A stretch of 20,386 nt of DNA, from positions 1 to 20,386 of IMG/VR virus record IMGVR_UViG_3300028840_003745. One strand, 5' to 3'. The stretch's first letter is position 1, and each line of letters starts with the position of its first letter. The position numbers were made by a program, and so were the translations under genes. Shown one piece after another: positions 736 through 18,002 of this stretch. This stretch comes from a virus. The notes beneath the pieces were generated by a model that worked only from the letters and a program-made list of their open reading frames with translations, was not told where the DNA came from and did no database searches.

Positions 736-764
736 TTGACATTATTTTTTATTCATGTTAAGTT
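736..764 (+). promoter_or_regulatory. Sigma-70-like promoter for the large non-coding RNA
   Basis: A perfect -35 hexamer TTGACA (736-741) is followed after 17 nt by TAAGTT (759-764), a weak -10 box strengthened by an extended TG at 756-757. The predicted transcription start is near 771, at the foot of the first hairpin of the RNA. The -35 box is classical, unlike the three other promoters in this window (5337, 10788, 19162). This RNA may therefore be read by unmodified host polymerase. The start site is inferred from spacing only. Confidence 0.55.
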
Positions 765-775
765 GTAATCAACTT
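760..775. promoter_or_regulatory. Perfect palindrome over -10 and start site, possible operator
   Basis: AAGTTG (760-765), a TAAT spacer and CAACTT (770-775) form a perfect 6+6 inverted repeat covering the -10 box and predicted start of the promoter at 736-764. A repressor bound here would block polymerase. At RNA level the right arm would instead join the 771-796 hairpin, so the palindrome makes most sense as DNA. No repressor gene is recognised nearby; the operator role is an inference from position. Confidence 0.3.
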
Positions 776-1301
776 GTTAATCACAAAAAACAAGTTTTTC
801 GTTCTTTGAAATAAAGGCACCTTGGACATTAGATTAATCGGTGATTCCGTGAGCCAAGGACAAGCCCCTCAAAAGCCCACAATCAAAACGGGCAAGGTCA
901 AAGATTCAATCCTGTCAGGCACAACGATCTGGTGACCGAACTACGACAGCGAAAATTGAGACCAAAAGAAAATGGATACAGCTCAACCTCCCACTCGTTT
1001 TAATCAATGCCGATCAATCGGTACTGTTAAGAAATCCCTGTGATAAGTGATCGCATGTAAATCTTCCGGCATGGTTTTTATGTCAAAGGAAGTTTTGCTA
1101 TCGGTGCTGGGCACACTTCACGCCAAGGGGTAGAGATCGGGATGTTGAATAGCTTTTATATCAGGCGCGAGGCGAAATGGCGAGCTTGCTTTAAACGTAG
1201 CAAGGGTTAAAGAGTAGTCTGCAAAAGGTATCCCCAAGGCATTCCATCACAGCAACGGTAATAAGTCTGTGTTCAATTCTGGTTTGCTGAGGTAAAAAAA
1301 T

Positions 1302-1314
1302 CTCCTCCTCCTTT
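1302..1314 (+). other. Anti-Shine-Dalgarno-like tract in the RNA
   Basis: CTCCTCCTCCTTT contains CCTCCTTT, the same word found at the 3' end of bacterial 16S rRNA. Its CTCCTCCTTT part (1305-1314) is exactly complementary to the AAAGGAGGAG ribosome sites at 2130-2139, 2793-2802 and 4526-4535, and nearly so to those at 3336 and 10865. Part of the tract can pair locally (1307-1310 with 1315-1318). Any regulatory role is an inference. Confidence 0.4.
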
Positions 1315-1319
1315 GAGGG

Positions 1320-1345
1320 TGGTTGCAGGGTTCGCCCTGCTACCA
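1320..1345 (+). terminator. UUCG-capped hairpin, possible terminator or attenuator
   Basis: Positions 1320-1330 pair with 1335-1345 around a TTCG loop, giving ten base pairs and one U-U mismatch. Only a short T-rich stretch (ATTTAAGTT) follows, so it is a weak intrinsic terminator at best. Its 3' arm (1338-1345) is also the outer part of the 25-bp long-range repeat, so the two structures exclude each other, as in an attenuator. Confidence 0.45.
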
Positions 1346-1638
1346 TTTAAGTTCATCGGGCAGAGAAAGAGAGAATGCTATGTTGACAAATTTGATAATT
1401 GTAAAAGGTAGTCAAAAAGAGATTGAAGAAATAGAAAATGATTATCGCGTAAAACTTTGTCCCGGTATGGTTAATATATGTAATGACCGTATTGAACTTC
1501 ACTTTAGATCTTCGATGAAAGCGGATCAATTTTTTGAGTATTAGTCTCCTCGCAGTGATGCAATGCTTGAACTTCAATATAATGTCCAAACAGCATATTA
1601 AAAAAAAAGAACTTGTCCGATGAATTTAAACGGTAGCA
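1338..1638. repeat. 25-bp inverted repeat enclosing a small ORF
   Basis: Positions 1338-1362 pair with 1614-1638: 24 of 25 positions pair, with one A-C mismatch (1345/1631) and two G-U pairs (1351/1625, 1360/1616). The 251-nt interior contains the ORF 1380-1544 and a nine-base A run near 1600-1608. The G-U pairs suggest pressure on RNA pairing rather than DNA identity. The alternative is a small element with terminal inverted repeats; I see no obvious target-site duplication outside the arms. Confidence 0.7.
1380..1544 (+). CDS. Small hypothetical protein (54 aa) inside an inverted repeat
   Basis: The ATG at 1380 gives 54 residues ending at TAG 1542-1544. The frame stays open upstream to 1323 (TTG), but that lies inside the UUCG hairpin, so 1380 is preferred. 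The ribosome site is poor (purine run GAGAAAGAGAGA upstream). The product begins with a beta-like hydrophobic stretch (LTNLIIVKG), has a Glu-rich helix and two cysteines, and resembles nothing I know. It lies entirely inside the 1338-1638 inverted repeat. It may be a true small gene controlled by that structure, or a chance frame within a longer RNA. Confidence 0.35.
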   Translation: MLTNLIIVKGSQKEIEEIENDYRVKLCPGMVNICNDRIELHFRSSMKADQFFEY

Positions 1639-1675: not shown

Positions 1676-2059
1676 ATGGCAACTGTATTAAAGATGAAAG
1701 GCAAAGTTCAAAAAAGTCTGAAAAGTGATATCGCCGCATATTTTGAGTTGAAGTCACAACTTGAAGATATGAAGGCAGATATCATTTCGCAGATGGAACG
1801 GAACGATTTGAGAAAGATTGAGACGAGCGACTTTGTTGCGAGCCTCACAGAAGTTCAGCGGAAAGAGATTGATGCTGAAGACTTCTACAACAATCTTTCC
1901 AAAAAGGAACGGAAATACTGGTTTCAAATGATCAATGTTGTCAAGTCAAAAGCCAAGAAGTTTGTTGGCGATGACAGCATTGAAGAGTTTGAAGTGCTGA
2001 CATCAACTTATGATCGGTTCGATGTCAAGCGCAAAAAGAAGATTCTCAAAAAGAAGTAG
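1676..2059 (+). CDS. Hypothetical basic, coiled protein (127 aa)
   Basis: The ATG at 1676 follows an AGAGGGGAGAGA purine tract (1659-1670). The 127-residue product is Lys-rich. Residues 12-45 look helical and heptad-like (ELKSQLEDMKADIISQMER), residues 46-90 are mixed, and the tail ends with a Lys cluster (KRKKKILKKK), suggesting nucleic-acid or acidic-protein binding. There are no Cys clusters or membrane segments. It sits just after the inverted repeat and before the denV-like gene, separated from the latter by a 12-bp hairpin. The family is not recognised, and the coiled-coil call is by eye. Confidence 0.65.
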   Translation: MATVLKMKGKVQKSLKSDIAAYFELKSQLEDMKADIISQMERNDLRKIETSDFVASLTEVQRKEIDAEDFYNNLSKKERKYWFQMINVVKSKAKKFVGDDSIEEFEVLTSTYDRFDVKRKKKILKKK

Positions 2060-4543: not shown

Positions 4544-4894
4544 ATGTGGATAATGAATACAGATGGATTCTTCAGTGTTGTGAAAGATGATTTTTGTAAA
4601 CGAGGTCAACTAGTAGTCAGGGCGAGACGAAGAGGTGATCTTGAAAGTTTGATCAAGTCAGCTATGGATTTTGGAATCATTAAGAGTAAAGTTAAAATTC
4701 ACAAGTTTGATGAAGCAGATTATCTCTATCGCATATACCTGAACCGAACAATTTTTGCGGAGTATCTTTCTATGTCTGGAATGTTCATTGATTATCCAAA
4801 CTTCAAAGCGACATTGCAGAAGGGTGATATTGATAGGCATAAGGCTTACTATGGTTGTTGGCGGGAACTTCTAAAACTTGAAAGAGGAGATTGA
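4544..4894 (+). CDS. Conserved hypothetical protein (116 aa)
   Basis: The ATG at 4544 is preceded by a perfect AAAGGAGGAG (4526-4535). The product begins MWIMNTDGFFSVVKD and has LVVRARRRGDLESL, DYLYRIYLNR and IDYPNFK motifs, ending YYGCWRELLKL. This arrangement matches a widespread family of about 120-residue hypotheticals in bacteria and phages, as I remember it. The family has no assigned function that I know. It looks like a compact alpha/beta protein, soluble, with no catalytic signature. The next start lies 2 nt beyond its stop. Confidence 0.7.
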   Translation: MWIMNTDGFFSVVKDDFCKRGQLVVRARRRGDLESLIKSAMDFGIIKSKVKIHKFDEADYLYRIYLNRTIFAEYLSMSGMFIDYPNFKATLQKGDIDRHKAYYGCWRELLKLERGD

Positions 4895-4896
4895 AT

Positions 4897-5340
4897 ATGA
4901 AGACGAAAGGGAGCGGGACATTTGAATATGAAACATTGTGTGCAATAAGGTTACTCTTCTATGAAAGTGATACACTCATATCGCTTGATAGTGAATACAG
5001 TGATGTTGAACAAGAAGAGGTGATAGATCCCATTCTTCTTGAAGTCAGCACATCTCAATGTATTCCAAATCCAGAACAAGAATTAATCCTTAAAGAAGCA
5101 TTTGAAAATCTGAGTGATGATTCAAAAGATCTATTGGCGATTATAATTCATTGGCCTGATGAGTTAGATGAAATGATTGGGTATGATTTGACTCCACGAA
5201 GAGGGAGACCAAATTACTTCAAAATAAGGAGAGGCCTTCTCCGTATATTCAGGGCGAGGGGTTGTAGGGTCGCCAGAATGTTACGTGAACTTAGTGATTT
5301 CACAAAGATATACTTCGAGATAGAGTCGGCTGTAAATTAA
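4897..5340 (+). CDS. Hypothetical regulator-like helical protein (147 aa)
   Basis: The ATG at 4897 lies 7 nt after GAGGAG; a TTG at 4891 in the same frame is too close to that site. The second half reads AFENLSDDSKDLLAIII...DELDEMI and then IRRGLLRIFRARGCRVARMLRELSDF. This is a two-part helical pattern recalling phage hypotheticals with sigma-like or helix-turn-helix segments (an SDDSKDLL helix, a linker, and a basic helix ending in a turn and a second helix). No known domain can be named with certainty. Its TAA stop (5338-5340) lies inside the next promoter, so it closes the early small-gene group. A role in transcription is an inference with low confidence. Confidence 0.6.
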   Translation: MKTKGSGTFEYETLCAIRLLFYESDTLISLDSEYSDVEQEEVIDPILLEVSTSQCIPNPEQELILKEAFENLSDDSKDLLAIIIHWPDELDEMIGYDLTPRRGRPNYFKIRRGLLRIFRARGCRVARMLRELSDFTKIYFEIESAVN

Positions 5341-7120: not shown

Positions 7121-8039
7121 TTACTTCGATGATAGGGGAATCAAGTACACTGTTGGTCCCGCGAAGAATGTGGCGAAGGGGCGCATCGGGATAAAGTGCC
7201 CCTTCGCAGGGTGTCAAGACAGGTCTAACCATTGCGGTATAGAATTATCAACTCTCCGTTTTCATTGCTTCGTATGCGGTGAAAGTGGTGACGCGGTCAA
7301 ACTCATAAGGGAAATTGAAGAGTGTAGCTTTAAAGAAGCGAAGGGGATCATTCGAAGGTTTAATTTGGGTGCTGTTACACGACCAACACCGACCGGCGGT
7401 TCCTCTCCTCTCTCCGCCGGGGAAGTGGACAGCACTCAAATTAAGACTTTGAGTTATCCAAAAGATGTGGTCACATTGAAAGGGATGCCAAAGTCACACC
7501 GAAGATATCTATCAAAGAGGGGATTTGATCCAAGTTATATTTGGAAGAAGTATAAACTCGCAGCAACTTCTCACTTGGGTCATCGTTTCAAATATCGAAT
7601 TCTGATACCATACTTCTATAAGCGGAAGATGGTGACATTCACTTCGAGAGACATCACGGACAAGTCTGAACTTAAATATCAACACTTGTCAGATGAAGAA
7701 TCATCTATACCTATCAAATCCCTTTTATATGGCGAAGAGTTTTGTGGCGACAAGGTGATAATAGTCGAGGGGCCGATGGACGTTTGGCGGATAGGGGATG
7801 GCGCTTGCGCATTGATGACTACGTCGATGACAAATGATCAGATGTTGAGGTTGATTGATATGGGGGTGATGATGGTATATATACTCCTTGATTCTGACGC
7901 CGTATTACAGGCCAGACGGCTCAAATTCCAGTTGAGGGGTATCATACCCTATGTTGAGGTGATATCGATGGATAGGGGCGATCCTGCTGATTCATTGACA
8001 CGTACGAATATCAAGTTCCTGAGGGGATTATTAAAATGA
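7113..8039 (+). CDS. DnaG-type DNA primase (zinc finger + Toprim)
   Basis: This 308-residue protein has an N-terminal CHC2-like zinc module (Cys29-x4-Cys34, His51-Cys52-x2-Cys55 in FHCFVCGESGD) followed by a Toprim core: IIVEGPMD (Glu219), LLDSDA (Asp260, Asp262) and a third acidic site GDPAD (290-293). It would lay RNA primers at the fork. It is shorter than cellular DnaG and has no helicase-binding tail and no fused helicase; the separate DnaB-type gene at 9201 supplies that. The linker around residues 90-105 is Pro/Gly/Ser-rich. The TTG start at 7113 is supported by GAGGAG (7101-7106). Its stop overlaps the next start by 4 nt (ATGA). Confidence 0.88.
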   Translation: MIDYFDDRGIKYTVGPAKNVAKGRIGIKCPFAGCQDRSNHCGIELSTLRFHCFVCGESGDAVKLIREIEECSFKEAKGIIRRFNLGAVTRPTPTGGSSPLSAGEVDSTQIKTLSYPKDVVTLKGMPKSHRRYLSKRGFDPSYIWKKYKLAATSHLGHRFKYRILIPYFYKRKMVTFTSRDITDKSELKYQHLSDEESSIPIKSLLYGEEFCGDKVIIVEGPMDVWRIGDGACALMTTSMTNDQMLRLIDMGVMMVYILLDSDAVLQARRLKFQLRGIIPYVEVISMDRGDPADSLTRTNIKFLRGLLK

Positions 8040-9200: not shown

Positions 9201-10769
9201 ATGGCGATACTCAGACGTGAAGGTGGCGAAGGTGGTGCGGTAGAAGAGAAGATTGTCGCTTGCATGATAATAAGCACAAGGTTCTGTTTTGAAGTTGAGA
9301 GGCGTTACAAGCCTGATTATATAACTTCTAAATATATATCAACTGTTATTGGTTGGATACTTAGATATTTTGATGAATATGGGAAACATCCCGGTGCGAC
9401 GATAATGGACATATATGAAGTTGAGAAGAGTGAACTTGAGCGAAGTGAATCGAGGATTATATTCACATTGCTTGCGAGGATTCGTCGGAAATATAATAAG
9501 AAGAATCTAAATGTTGATTATATACTTGATAAGGCGAAAGAGTATTTCAAGCAGAGGGCTACCACCTTGCTATTTGAACGCGGTGAGAAGTTGGTCGCTG
9601 CTAGTCGATTGGCTGAGGCGGATGCATTAGTTGAGGCTCATAAAGAAGTGTCCGTGTCAACATCAAAGAGGTTTAACCCGTTTGATAGGGATTCGATTAT
9701 AACTTTTAGAAGTGAAAGTTTGGAGAACAGATTATTCTCCATGCCAGACTATCTTGGAGAGTATTTGGGATCACTTGAGAAAGGGTGGCTTGTATCAATA
9801 GCTGGTCCAGAGAAGAGGGGTAAGACGTGGTGGTTGATGGAATTCGCATACCAGGCATTAATGGCAGGGTTGAGGGTGATCTTCTTCTCTCTTGAAATGG
9901 CAGACTATGCGGTAAAAGTGAGATTGTATAAGCGGCTGACGGGATTTTTGACCGATAGGGAGTTATTGAGAATTGAGAGGTCGAATATTGATTATGTCAG
10001 GTACCCTGTATTCGATTGTGAATGGGGGCGTCATGGGAAGTGCAAGTTGAAGCGGGGTAAGCGGGTGAGATTGGAAAGTTATGATGATTTCTCCCCAAGT
10101 TTAAGGTACAAACCTTGCACAGATTGTAGAGTGAAAGATCCAAGGAGATATAAGACCGACTATTGGTTCGACTATATACCATTGAAAAATATAAAGACGA
10201 TGACGTTGAAAGCGATAGAGAGAAAAGTGAGTGACTTCACTTCCCTTTACAGGGATAACTTTAGGGTGAGGACATTCCCAAGATTCAGCGCGACTTTCAA
10301 AGACATAAAGAGGGAATTGGATGATCTGGCATATTCAGAAGATTTCATACCGCAAGTTGTGGTGGTCGATTACTTCGATATAATGGCAAGTGAGACATTC
10401 TCATATCAAAGTGAGAGGACCCCTGTTAATGCGACTTGGATGACCGGTGGGCAATTGGCGGCTGAACGGCACTGTTGTGTTATTACAGGTGATCAGACGA
10501 AGATGAAGAGTCGGAATAAGATTAATATAGGGGAAGATGATACAACTGAAGACAAGAGGAAGGATGCTCACGTTGACATGAAGGTAGTGTTGAATCAGAC
10601 GGGAATGGAGTACAATCATGGGATCATGCGCTTGAACTTGTTGTTTCACAGGCACAGGGAGACGCCGAAGAACTTACAGGCGATGGTCACTCAATCATTA
10701 AAGTTCGGTCAACCGTTGATGGATAGTGAACGGTTTTGGCGTGAAGAGAAAGGGGGTGAATCGGAATAG
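9201..10769 (+). CDS. DnaB-type replicative helicase with zinc-like insertion
   Basis: This 522-residue protein has an N-terminal helical domain (1-150) and a RecA-type core: Walker A GPEKRGKT (202-209), the DnaB-typical FFSLEM (228-233) and Walker B VVVVDYFD (386-393). A late H-x-H-R stretch (LLFHRHRETPKN) may hold the arginine finger region. It would unwind DNA 5' to 3' as a ring. Between FFSLEM and Walker B there is an unusual insertion with Cys273, Cys281, Cys306 and Cys309 (C-x7-C ... C-x2-C), probably a zinc ribbon. The ATG at 9201 is chosen because GGGGGATGAT lies just before it; an ATG at 9186 lies before that site. The frame overlaps nothing downstream and the operon ends here. Confidence 0.85.
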   Translation: MAILRREGGEGGAVEEKIVACMIISTRFCFEVERRYKPDYITSKYISTVIGWILRYFDEYGKHPGATIMDIYEVEKSELERSESRIIFTLLARIRRKYNKKNLNVDYILDKAKEYFKQRATTLLFERGEKLVAASRLAEADALVEAHKEVSVSTSKRFNPFDRDSIITFRSESLENRLFSMPDYLGEYLGSLEKGWLVSIAGPEKRGKTWWLMEFAYQALMAGLRVIFFSLEMADYAVKVRLYKRLTGFLTDRELLRIERSNIDYVRYPVFDCEWGRHGKCKLKRGKRVRLESYDDFSPSLRYKPCTDCRVKDPRRYKTDYWFDYIPLKNIKTMTLKAIERKVSDFTSLYRDNFRVRTFPRFSATFKDIKRELDDLAYSEDFIPQVVVVDYFDIMASETFSYQSERTPVNATWMTGGQLAAERHCCVITGDQTKMKSRNKINIGEDDTTEDKRKDAHVDMKVVLNQTGMEYNHGIMRLNLLFHRHRETPKNLQAMVTQSLKFGQPLMDSERFWREEKGGESE

Positions 10770-13764: not shown

Positions 13765-14727
13765 ATGAAGAAAGTGATTAAGAAGAAGGTGAAGAGTGAC
13801 AATCTCTCCCTTGCTGTGAAGTATAGACCATTAGACTTTGATCATGTCTATGGTCAAGATGGGGTGAAGGAACTTCTAATAACACACTTGGCGTTGGATA
13901 GTTGTCCAAGGGTGATGTTATTTTATGGGCCGAGGGGTTGTGGGAAGACTACTGTTGCGAGAATAGTTGCTAACATGCTTGGTGCAAGGGGTAGAGATCT
14001 GGTAGAATTTAACATTGCACATACAGGTGGGAAGGATAGAGCGAGAGAGATCGCCGATAATGCCAACTATGCACCATTTGAGTCAGATGTGAAGATTTAC
14101 ATCTTTGATGAATGTCATAGGGCAACGAAAGACTTTCAAGATGCTTTGTTGAAAGTGATTGAAGAACCTCCACCATATGTCTACTTCATATTCTGCACAA
14201 CTGAAGAGGATAGGTTATTGGCGACCATAAAGAGTCGTTGCACCCCATTTGAATTTTCACCATTGAAGTCTGCTGATCTGAAAAAGGTGATTGATAATAT
14301 ATTAGAATCAGAAGATGAAGTGATTGACACTTCGCTTGTCAGAGAGATAATTAGTCAGGTGGATGGTGATTGTCGAAGGGCGATCAAACTGCTTGAGATG
14401 ACTTTTGGTGTTGAAGAACCCAATATTGAAAGTATACTTCCAATTGCAAGTCGAAAAGATATAAGGGAGTTGTGCCGAGCGTTGCTTGATGGCAAGGGCT
14501 GGAAGATTGTATCAGGGATGTTAAAAGGTTTGAGAGAAGAAGATCATGAACAGATTCGCAGGGCTGTTCTTAGATATATGGGGAAAGTACTTTTGAGTGG
14601 TGATAATATAAGGGCATATATGATACTTGAAGCATTCTCTGAGCCTTGGCATAGTGTAGGTGGTTATAATGGATTGATTTATTCTTGTTATGCAGTAGCG
14701 AAGGCGAAGGAGTTGATGAAGATATGA
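13765..14727 (+). CDS. DnaX-like clamp loader ATPase
   Basis: A 320-residue AAA+ clamp loader: LAVKYRPLDFDHVYGQ opening motif, Walker A GPRGCGKT (55-62), Walker B IFDECH (113-118), sensor 1 FCTTE (143-147) and the SRC arginine-finger motif IKSRCTPFEF (155-164). It would open the clamp and place it on primed DNA. The zinc module of bacterial DnaX is missing and the tau C-terminus is absent, so it resembles a minimal, RFC-small-type loader. No separate delta subunit is visible; the complex may use one gene product or host subunits. The ATG at 13765 is preferred over a GTG at 13759 because GGGGTGATC precedes it. The last 4 nt overlap the polymerase gene (ATGA). Confidence 0.88.
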   Translation: MKKVIKKKVKSDNLSLAVKYRPLDFDHVYGQDGVKELLITHLALDSCPRVMLFYGPRGCGKTTVARIVANMLGARGRDLVEFNIAHTGGKDRAREIADNANYAPFESDVKIYIFDECHRATKDFQDALLKVIEEPPPYVYFIFCTTEEDRLLATIKSRCTPFEFSPLKSADLKKVIDNILESEDEVIDTSLVREIISQVDGDCRRAIKLLEMTFGVEEPNIESILPIASRKDIRELCRALLDGKGWKIVSGMLKGLREEDHEQIRRAVLRYMGKVLLSGDNIRAYMILEAFSEPWHSVGGYNGLIYSCYAVAKAKELMKI

Positions 14728-17700
14728 GTTTTTGTCATCTGCACGTCCATAATGAATTTTCACTTCTTGATGGTTTTGGCCGCGCTGAACACTATGCGAA
14801 AGAAGCAAAAGAGAAGGGATTTAAGTATATCGCCCTAACTAATCATGGCAACATAGATGGCTTGATTAAGTGGCAGAAGGCTTGTGATAAGTTTGGGGTT
14901 GTGCCAATCTTTGGTGTTGAATGTTATATCGTTGAAGACTACACTGTGAAAGAGAAGGGGGAGAAGAGGGGTCACATAACCTTATTGATAAAGAATGAAC
15001 AGGGATTTAGAAATGTTTGCAAACTTCTCACGACAGCAAACATAGAAGGCTTCTACTACAGGCCGAGAATAGATTGTGATCTCCTGCTTCAGCATCTTGA
15101 TGGACTTGTAGTGATGACTGCCTGTATTAGCTCTTTCATTGGTAAAGATTGGGGCGCGAGGCTATTTGAAGATATTCATGATGAGATAGGGGGCGATCTA
15201 TATGTAGAAGTAATGCCGCACAATGCAGAAGAACAAGTTGAGATAAACAAGTTGGCGAAGGCATTCTACGATGAATATGGTGTATCTATGGTGGCGACTA
15301 ATGATTGTCACTATGTTAAGCGTCATCAATGGGAGTCACAAGAAGTACTACTCGCACTGAACAGGAAGGATACATGGGACAATCCGGAGAGGTTCAAGTT
15401 TCCGTTCAATGGTCTCCATCTGCGAACAGAAGTTGAGATGCGCAAAGCATTTAAGAAGCAAGGTTGCTTGTCGAAGTCTGCCTATTCTCGTGCAATTAAG
15501 AACACTATGAGGGTTGCAAAGAAGTGTTCTAATTTTAGAATAGAGAAGCGGGCGATCAGACTGCCAAAGATTGATGTTGGGATGGATCATGCCGAGTACA
15601 TCAGACGATTGTGCGAGCGTAAGATAAGATCAATGCCAATTAGTAGGCGGGGCAGGTTCATATATCGTGCGAGATATATGAGGGAACTTGATCTAATAAA
15701 GAGGAAAGGTTTTGAATCGTACTTCGTTCTCTTCAGGAAACTTATAGAATACTGTGACAGGGAAGGGATATGGAGAGGTCCGGGTCGTGGCAGTGTCGGT
15801 TGTTCACTAGTAGCTTACCTGCTTGACATAACGAATATTGATTCATTGAAGTACAAGTTGCCAATAGATAGGTTCATATCAGAAGATAGAATTGACTATC
15901 CTGATATAGATATGGACTTCGAAGATAATAAGACGGATCTTGTTCGGTCATATCTTGAAGAAGAGTTTGAGGAAGAAAGAGTTTTTGGTGTGTCGACTTT
16001 CAGCAAGATGAAGGGGAGGGCTGTCGTCCGTGATGTTTCACGAGTCTTTGGTGTTCCACTTTCTGAAGTTGATGAGTTTGCAAAGTCTGTTGATGAGGTT
16101 TCAAAACAGGAGAAGGGTTCTTTTGACTCAGTTAGTAGGGCGGCTAATGAAGATATTGGTCGAGATTTCAAGAAGAGATATCCAAGGGTTGTCAAAAATG
16201 CGATTGAACTTGAAGGTCAGACGAGACACGCAAGTCAACATGCTGCTGCAATAATAGTTGCCGCAGAAGATCCGACGAATAATTCTGTTGGAGTACTTCG
16301 CAATGGTGTGTTGATGTGCAATTGGGATATGGATGATGTAGAGTATATGGGATTCGTCAAACTTGATATTCTGAAGTTGAATACGATGACCATATTACAT
16401 GAGGCATCTAATCTTATTAAGGAAAACAAGGATGAAGAGATTGATTTAAAACATTTGAAGTTTGATGATGATTCTGTATATGCAGAATTGAATAAAGGGA
16501 ATGTGACGGGGTGCTTTCAGGTCAGTGGTTGGTCGACGAAGAAAGTGGCGATGAATATAGAAGTAGAGAACTTTCAACAATTATCTGACGCCATAGCATT
16601 GTCAAGACCGGGACCGAAAGATAGTGGTATGACAGATGAGTATGTTAGGAGGCGACATGGGGGCAAATGGAAGAGTAAACATCATTTATTTGAAAAAGAG
16701 ACCCGTAGTACATACGGCGTGGTTGTATATCAAGAACAGGTTATGGGCATTCTTCGTTCTGTGGCTGGTATGTCTTATTCAGATGCAGATCGGATCAGAA
16801 AAGTTATTGGCAAGAAGCGTTCTAAAAAAGAGTTTGCTCCTTTTAAACAGCAGTTTATTCTCGGTGCGCTTAAAAGAAGAACTTTCACTCGTAAAGAAGC
16901 GGAAGATTTTTGGTCTGGGCTAGAAAATCATTCTCGATATAGTTTTAACCTCGCCCATAGTATTGGATATTCAATGGTGGCATATTGGGATCTCTACTTG
17001 AAAGTGCATTATCCACTTGAGTTTATATGTGCCTCACTCACTTATGGTCCTGATGATAAAGATAAGAAAGAGGAGTTGATTGAAGATGCGAAGCGGATGG
17101 GATTGAAGATAATGCCACCGAAAGTTGGTATATCAAAGTTTCGACAGTGGGTAGTTAATGGGGATGGGCTTTACGTCCCTTTCATAGAGATTGATGGCAT
17201 TGGTCAGAAGTCAGAGGGATTGATTGAAGAGGCTAGTGATAACAGCACTAGTCAGATGGGCCTATGGGGTGAGATTGAACAGGAGTTGAGTGGTAAGGCG
17301 AAGCGTGTCAGGGGTATACTTGAGAAGGTTGGCGCTTTTGATGAGTTGGCAGTGCCAGAAGACATAGAGAAGTATGTAAGCTATGACTTTTGGCAGAATC
17401 CTGTGAAGATAAATAAGATAAGATTTAAAGTGAACAAGCGGCTGTTAAAGTGTAAGTCTTGCCCACTTTGGAGGGAATGCACTCTCCCTGTTCAACCATC
17501 ACCGGGAAAGTATAATGTGATGGTTGGTGGGGAAGCTCCCGGTTTCAATGAAGATAAGGTGGGTAAGGGTTTCGTTGGCCGTGCTGGTGATCTTCTATGG
17601 GAGAAGTTAAGTGAATATGGATTGAAGAGGGGGATGTTTCATATCACAAATTGCAATAAGTGTTATCCAAAGTCTTCAAAGACGCCATCACATGAAGAAG

Positions 17701-18002
17701 TCAACATATGCTTTAAAAAGTGGATGAGGGGTGAGATTGAATCGATAGTGTGTGGTTTGATGTTGGCTTTTGGAAATACTCTTCGATATGCATTGACTGG
17801 GAAGATGTCTGGAATTCGTGCGATGAGTGGGTCAACTGAATTGATAGACTTTGAATATGGAAAGTTGAAAGTTGTATGGTGTGTTCATCCTGCCTCTGTT
17901 CTTCGTGGTGATGAAGAGAATAAGTTGGCTTTTGAAAAAGGGTTGAAGAAGTTTGTTGAAGAGTTGAGGATTGCACAAGGGTTTGATGAGGTGATGTTTT
18001 GA
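14724..18002 (+). CDS. DNA polymerase III alpha (DnaE-type) fused to family-4 uracil-DNA glycosylase
   Basis: A 1092-residue replicative polymerase. Residues 1-210: PHP domain with HLHVHNEFSLLDG, TNHGNIDG, GVECY, HITLL, TACIS and NDCHY, so the metal ligands look intact. Residues 330-560: C-family active site with GRGSVGCSL, YPDIDMDFED (Asp395/Asp397) and VKLDIL (Asp548). Residues 815-838: helix-hairpin-helix (IDGIGQKSEGLIEEA). Residues 844-848: QMGLW clamp-binding motif. The usual OB-fold and tau-binding C-terminus are replaced by a family-4 UDG (906-1081): Fe-S cysteines C910, C913, C980 and C996, GGEAPGFNED and FVGRAG (935-955), TNCNKC, and HPASVLRG (1055-1062). UDG removes uracil from DNA. 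The start at 14724 overlaps the DnaX stop; an in-frame TTG at 14685 lies inside the loader gene. Both domains appear complete. Confidence 0.92.
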   Translation: MSFCHLHVHNEFSLLDGFGRAEHYAKEAKEKGFKYIALTNHGNIDGLIKWQKACDKFGVVPIFGVECYIVEDYTVKEKGEKRGHITLLIKNEQGFRNVCKLLTTANIEGFYYRPRIDCDLLLQHLDGLVVMTACISSFIGKDWGARLFEDIHDEIGGDLYVEVMPHNAEEQVEINKLAKAFYDEYGVSMVATNDCHYVKRHQWESQEVLLALNRKDTWDNPERFKFPFNGLHLRTEVEMRKAFKKQGCLSKSAYSRAIKNTMRVAKKCSNFRIEKRAIRLPKIDVGMDHAEYIRRLCERKIRSMPISRRGRFIYRARYMRELDLIKRKGFESYFVLFRKLIEYCDREGIWRGPGRGSVGCSLVAYLLDITNIDSLKYKLPIDRFISEDRIDYPDIDMDFEDNKTDLVRSYLEEEFEEERVFGVSTFSKMKGRAVVRDVSRVFGVPLSEVDEFAKSVDEVSKQEKGSFDSVSRAANEDIGRDFKKRYPRVVKNAIELEGQTRHASQHAAAIIVAAEDPTNNSVGVLRNGVLMCNWDMDDVEYMGFVKLDILKLNTMTILHEASNLIKENKDEEIDLKHLKFDDDSVYAELNKGNVTGCFQVSGWSTKKVAMNIEVENFQQLSDAIALSRPGPKDSGMTDEYVRRRHGGKWKSKHHLFEKETRSTYGVVVYQEQVMGILRSVAGMSYSDADRIRKVIGKKRSKKEFAPFKQQFILGALKRRTFTRKEAEDFWSGLENHSRYSFNLAHSIGYSMVAYWDLYLKVHYPLEFICASLTYGPDDKDKKEELIEDAKRMGLKIMPPKVGISKFRQWVVNGDGLYVPFIEIDGIGQKSEGLIEEASDNSTSQMGLWGEIEQELSGKAKRVRGILEKVGAFDELAVPEDIEKYVSYDFWQNPVKINKIRFKVNKRLLKCKSCPLWRECTLPVQPSPGKYNVMVGGEAPGFNEDKVGKGFVGRAGDLLWEKLSEYGLKRGMFHITNCNKCYPKSSKTPSHEEVNICFKKWMRGEIESIVCGLMLAFGNTLRYALTGKMSGIRAMSGSTELIDFEYGKLKVVWCVHPASVLRGDEENKLAFEKGLKKFVEELRIAQGFDEVMF

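Follow-up and report, generated by a model that had tools for sequence, protein, structure and literature searches.

Why would a phage place two complementary 25-nucleotide arms around a gene of only 54 codons, and do these arms act in RNA or in DNA? The locus lies in an IMG/VR record of a fragment from an uncultured phage. The whole record, 20,386 bases in length, was analysed and is called the window here. The plus strand of the window carries a replication module encoding a UvsW-like helicase, a zinc-ribbon primase, a DnaB-like helicase, and DnaE, together with clamp-like and clamp-loader-like proteins (names by sequence reading only). The DnaE-type polymerase and a C-terminal uracil-DNA glycosylase domain form a single protein (positions 14685-18002), and a small pyrimidine dimer glycosylase resembling T4 endonuclease V is encoded at 2158-2469. 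A tRNA and tmRNA search of the window found none. The features of the locus, and those of related phages discussed below, are collected in Table 1.

Table 1. Features around the long-range helix of the window, and stems found after the primase gene in related phages (positions of the respective record).
Feature	Position	Strand	Remarks
Promoter-like TTGACA (736-741) with inverted repeat AAGTTG-TAAT-CAACTT	736-777	+	Within the AT-rich block; putative promoter
boxA-like antitermination motif GTTCTTTGA	801-809	+	Found once in the window, both strands considered
Non-coding leader, about 45% GC	812-1337	+	No coding signal, Rfam match or excess folding stability
Local hairpin GGTTGCAGGG-UUCG-CCCUGCUACC	1320-1345	+	Competition with the helix limited to its outer 7 bp
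25-bp long-range helix, left arm (TGCTACCATTTAAGTTCATCGGGCA)	1338-1362	+	Pairing, shuffle test, fold prediction
54-codon ORF in the helix loop	1380-1544	+	Coding-like codon use, moderate Shine-Dalgarno sequence, no homologue found
25-bp long-range helix, right arm (TGTCCGATGAATTTAAACGGTAGCA)	1614-1638	+	Pairing, shuffle test, fold prediction
Next operon gene, 127 aa, no family	1676-2059	+	Own ribosome site; outside the helix
Post-primase stem, L010	9614-9728		
Post-primase stem, L011	11037-11169		
Post-primase stem, L016	4778-4896		
Post-primase stem, L020	11085-11189		
Post-primase stem, L021	8524-8638		
Post-primase stem, L026	10986-11111		
Post-primase stem, L088	10727-10838		
Post-primase stem, L105	9271-9369		
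Post-primase stems, L004, L018, L023, L029, L033, L040, L045 and L048			

The original prediction that the two arms pair at 24 of 25 positions, with two G-U pairs and one mismatch, was recomputed and is correct. The G-U pairs are at 1351-1625 and 1360-1616, and the mismatch is an A-C at 1345/1631. The arms are about 250 nucleotides apart, and the whole unit spans 301 bp. In a scan of the whole window with arms allowed within 1 kb, this was the sole 25-bp helix of such quality, and a comparable helix was found in none of 100 windows generated by local dinucleotide shuffling. A second scan with another scoring and a loop of up to 400 nucleotides gave two strong stems in the window, namely this helix and a stem within the primase gene; on 677 kb of shuffled sequences of the relatives it gave a single match. 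The predicted energy of the duplex is -34.8 kcal/mol, and most of its pair probabilities at equilibrium exceed 0.95. The segment from 1338 to 1638 has a folding z of -4.8, versus +0.4 for its interior (1363-1613). Thus, the folding signal of the segment comes from the helix alone. The 25-bp helix is real and far beyond chance.

Is the unit a small mobile element? Its length of 301 bp and its inverted ends would suit a MITE-like element with 25-bp terminal inverted repeats, one of the identities first suggested for it. However, the two flanks differ and there is no target duplication, the pairing runs past the arms (1335-1336 with 1640-1641), and the enclosed ORF does not resemble any transposase. 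Copies were also searched for. The consensus of the arms has no copy in IMG/VR, and in 84,980 genomes it has one match, of 26 nucleotides, where an unrelated gene ends. By arithmetic on the pattern, this is about what chance would give in 257 billion bases. These results weaken the suggestion, and a mobile element is highly improbable.

The same arms could instead act in DNA, as a site of replication or recombination, of protein binding, or of cruciform formation. The near-perfect 25-bp arms form an inverted repeat beside the replication gene cluster. On the other hand, a separation of 251 bp is unusual for an operator or an origin hairpin. The repeat is imperfect at three positions, of which two remain paired, as G-U, in a plus-strand RNA and one in a minus-strand RNA; these are too few to decide the strand or to weigh against DNA. 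I regard a DNA-level function as improbable.

What is enclosed by the helix? The 54-codon ORF that had been noticed between the arms is present. Its codon score is 0.27 bits per codon, versus a median of 0.28 for the genes of this phage, and exceeds 97.5% of off-frame pieces (97.5th percentile, 0.21). It thus scores as a real gene. The Shine-Dalgarno pairing is -9.7 kcal/mol, and the 54-aa product is predicted with moderate confidence (pLDDT 64) to have a beta-alpha-beta-beta structure. Both arms are outside this ORF, so that its translation need not disrupt the helix. Just 3' of the helix, the coding region 1676-2080 folds far better than shuffled sequences (plus-strand z down to -5.1).

It had been claimed that the helix and the local hairpin exclude each other, since they share the left arm. 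This holds for the outer 7 bp (1338-1344/1632-1638), whereas the inner 17 pairs coexist with the hairpin. The energy of the hairpin is about -17.7 kcal/mol, versus that given above for the duplex, and its predicted equilibrium probability is about 0.001, the helix being the dominant fold. Compared with the full helix, the combination of the hairpin and the inner 17 bp is less stable by only about 4 kcal/mol when 795-1660 is folded and by about 3-4 kcal/mol for 1310-1645. The two structures are thus only partly exclusive. In addition, the UUCG loop is closed by a G-C pair, and the hairpin is therefore not an extra-stable C(UUCG)G tetraloop.

Such a pair of folds may recall an attenuator or a switch, in which the hairpin alternates with the helix and the two regulate the 54-codon gene or the operon that follows. 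The overlap and the small energy difference between the states would allow it. However, neither a terminator nor a T-run was found in the sequence beside the helix or the hairpin, and 17 bp of the helix remain in either state. The accessibility of the ribosome site of the ORF is 0.62 versus 0.60, that is, unchanged by the helix, and that of the next gene is likewise independent of it. Since the ribosome sites are indifferent to the helix and a terminator is lacking, the attenuator proposed earlier loses its support, and I consider it distinctly unlikely.

Upstream of the helix lie about 540 nucleotides of non-coding sequence, preceded by an AT-rich block (540-790; about 20-27% GC). The block contains the promoter-like TTGACA, for which the -10 element at the proper spacing is poor, and no strong site was found there. 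Just 3' of the block, at the start of the non-coding stretch, is the boxA word, which places it near the start of what would be a long untranslated transcript. A word of nine bases could occur there by chance.

Is the helix then one domain of a much larger RNA? The original prediction considered the arms as a possible outer helix of an RNA of about 870 nucleotides. The helix does appear to belong to a longer transcript, given the boxA-led leader upstream and the intercistronic position, but it is not the outer helix of the whole, as it encloses only 1363-1613 and the upstream 540 nucleotides have no excess stability. A related possibility is that about 800-1640 forms a large and structured non-coding RNA, belonging to a new class of ornate phage RNAs, with the ORF inserted in a peripheral loop. 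The region is about 830 nucleotides in length, has no long ORF except the 54 codons, is led by boxA, and has a GC content above its surroundings. GOLLD RNAs occur in phages and have tRNA insertions in a linker (PMC12286853), and the locus would be like GOLLD and ROOL in giving a long phage RNA that is non-coding; in the case of GOLLD, an insertion is shared as well. In contrast to these RNAs, there is no covariance-model match here and no excess stability outside the 25-bp helix; the folding z of 795-1337 is 0.0, the same as for shuffled sequence. Rfam covariance models, including those of GOLLD, ROOL, OLE, and introns, gave no gathering-level match and no relevant hit even at E 10. A pseudoknot in which the leader would pair with the helix loop (for example, 822-835 with 1576-1589) was also tried and was not significant (p 0.13). 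It is rather doubtful that the helix is one domain of such an RNA, and it is unlikely that the boxA-led 800-1640 region represents a large phage non-coding RNA of a new class, with a small protein gene inside a 25-bp-helix stalk. A group I or II intron was also rejected, with neither a covariance-model match nor a split gene.

Are the leader, the helix and the small gene found in other phages? About 150 loci were gathered through primase- and helicase-based searches, and the nearest relatives have 40-44% identity for the helicase and the primase. The phage records, IMG/VR, and the GTDB species genomes, the last being scanned for the arms only, yielded no homologue of the 54-aa protein, of the leader, or of the arms. 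When the leader was compared with about 90 relatives by blastn and nhmmer, and 50 whole records were searched as well, only matches of 15-25 nucleotides were obtained, which were taken as chance; two of these loci were inspected, and in one the match is inside a coding gene. Neither the leader (blastn) nor a similar helix in place is present in any of the relatives found. A fairly close relative, L011, has a similar layout upstream of its helicase gene: a palindrome occurs twice (4623-4690 and 4916-4979), a 62-codon ORF lies in between, and the copies pair with each other as a 37-bp long-range helix. Since this layout derives from a duplicated hairpin, it is an analogy and not a homologue.

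The boxA word was found before non-coding RNA in two relatives. In L029 (7775-9470), a hairpin is followed by a boxA (7863), a repeat array, and a 330-aa Tas-like protein. The array has 9-nucleotide spacers between alternating GAGCGAGYC and GAGAAACCC repeats with a period of 36, and the protein matches the NCBIfam model TIGR_Tas_endo (E 2e-27) with 96.5 bits, just under the cut-off of 100. As read from its sequence, this locus is a TIGR-Tas system with a boxA leader; boxA is not mentioned in the original TIGR-Tas paper. A TIGR array was also considered for 790-1340 of the window and rejected, as the 36-nucleotide periodicity is absent there, unlike in L029. In L045 (14050-14275), a TATAAT and the boxA GTTCTTTGAAAT precede a 165-nucleotide RNA, whose ends resemble a tRNA acceptor with a T-arm and CCA and which matches the tmRNA model weakly (11 bits, under the gathering score). 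These two loci support a role of boxA as a mark of untranslated RNAs in this phage group. Another relative, L020, has a type II hammerhead ribozyme (2712-2786) just over the gathering score.

In about 16 related phages, a stem of 20-38 bp with a loop of 31-67 nucleotides lies within about 300 nucleotides of the end of the primase match. Comparable stems lie farther downstream of the primase in L012, L017, and L074. The arm sequences diverge between phages and the pairing is kept. Of 18 copies tested, 10 have a loop that pairs with the 5' or the 3' flank (p <=0.025), which suggests that the hairpin is pseudoknotted. An Rfam scan of seven of these loci gave no match, and the stem is possibly a new RNA (or origin) element. 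The window lacks a copy after its primase gene. The helix of the window resembles these hairpins in stem length, in score (50.5, versus 46-88), and in belonging to the same phage group. It differs from them in its loop (249 versus 31-74 nucleotides) and in its location 5.5 kb upstream of the primase gene, whereas theirs is directly downstream, and the pairing of loop and flank that is common in them is not significant here. The stem within the primase gene of the window is 32 bp in length (7345-7459; codons 78-116) and lies between the zinc ribbon and the rest of the protein. The best in-gene stems of L045 (codons 75-109; 10225-10326) and L019 (codons 78-103) are at the same place. This hairpin may be connected with internal initiation or with a pause in translation.

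For the helix of the window, the reading that I favour, at somewhat less than an even chance, is a leader-trailer or RNase III-type helix for the processing or stabilisation of a small cistron. The helix would act as RNA, within a long early transcript of the plus strand. Transcription would start in the AT-rich block near 740-790, and boxA should load a Nus antitermination complex, on which the polymerase would depend to cross the long untranslated leader and reach the small cistron. The two arms would then close a double-stranded stalk of 24 pairs around the gene, and the stalk would be a substrate for RNase III or for another double-strand-specific step. This step would excise or protect the small mRNA and separate the leader from the downstream early genes. 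The leader-trailer type of reading is favoured by the uniqueness of the helix (0 of 100 shuffles), its energy, and pair probabilities near 1. It is also favoured by arms that lie outside the ORF, by a next gene with its own ribosome site, and by a lone boxA at the start of the non-coding stretch, the same word being placed before non-coding RNA in L029 and L045.

The RNase III sites of T7-type phage early mRNAs are local hairpins between genes. The helix is like them in being a double-stranded stem at an intercistronic position of a putative early polycistronic message, and unlike them in that its arms flank a gene at a distance of 251 nucleotides. Its most likely use is that known from ribosomal RNA. 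In the leader-trailer helices of E. coli rRNA, more than 17 bp are needed in 16S and 27 bp are present in 23S (PMC10250234). The 24 pairs form a near-perfect double strand of the kind (about 20 bp or more) that RNase III or a leader-trailer helix calls for, and this length, within the range of known helices of both types, likewise favours the leader-trailer type of reading. Like the E. coli rrn operons (PMC10250234), the locus has a boxA near the predicted transcript start, an enclosing helix of more than 20 bp made of flanking sequences, and no terminator between them. Unlike in rrn, the enclosed segment is a small mRNA and not an rRNA, and the cleavage is a prediction. The left strand lies about 530 nucleotides after boxA here, versus about 20 in rrn, and the boxA-led leader is outside the helix, unlike in the rRNA helices.

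Should the helix prove to be a processing stalk, the logic of rRNA, a boxA with a long enclosing helix, would have been borrowed by phages for the excision of a tiny mRNA from a long early transcript, or for its protection. Long paired stems that diverge fast are recurrent in this phage group, most of all downstream of the primase gene, and covariation is testable there.
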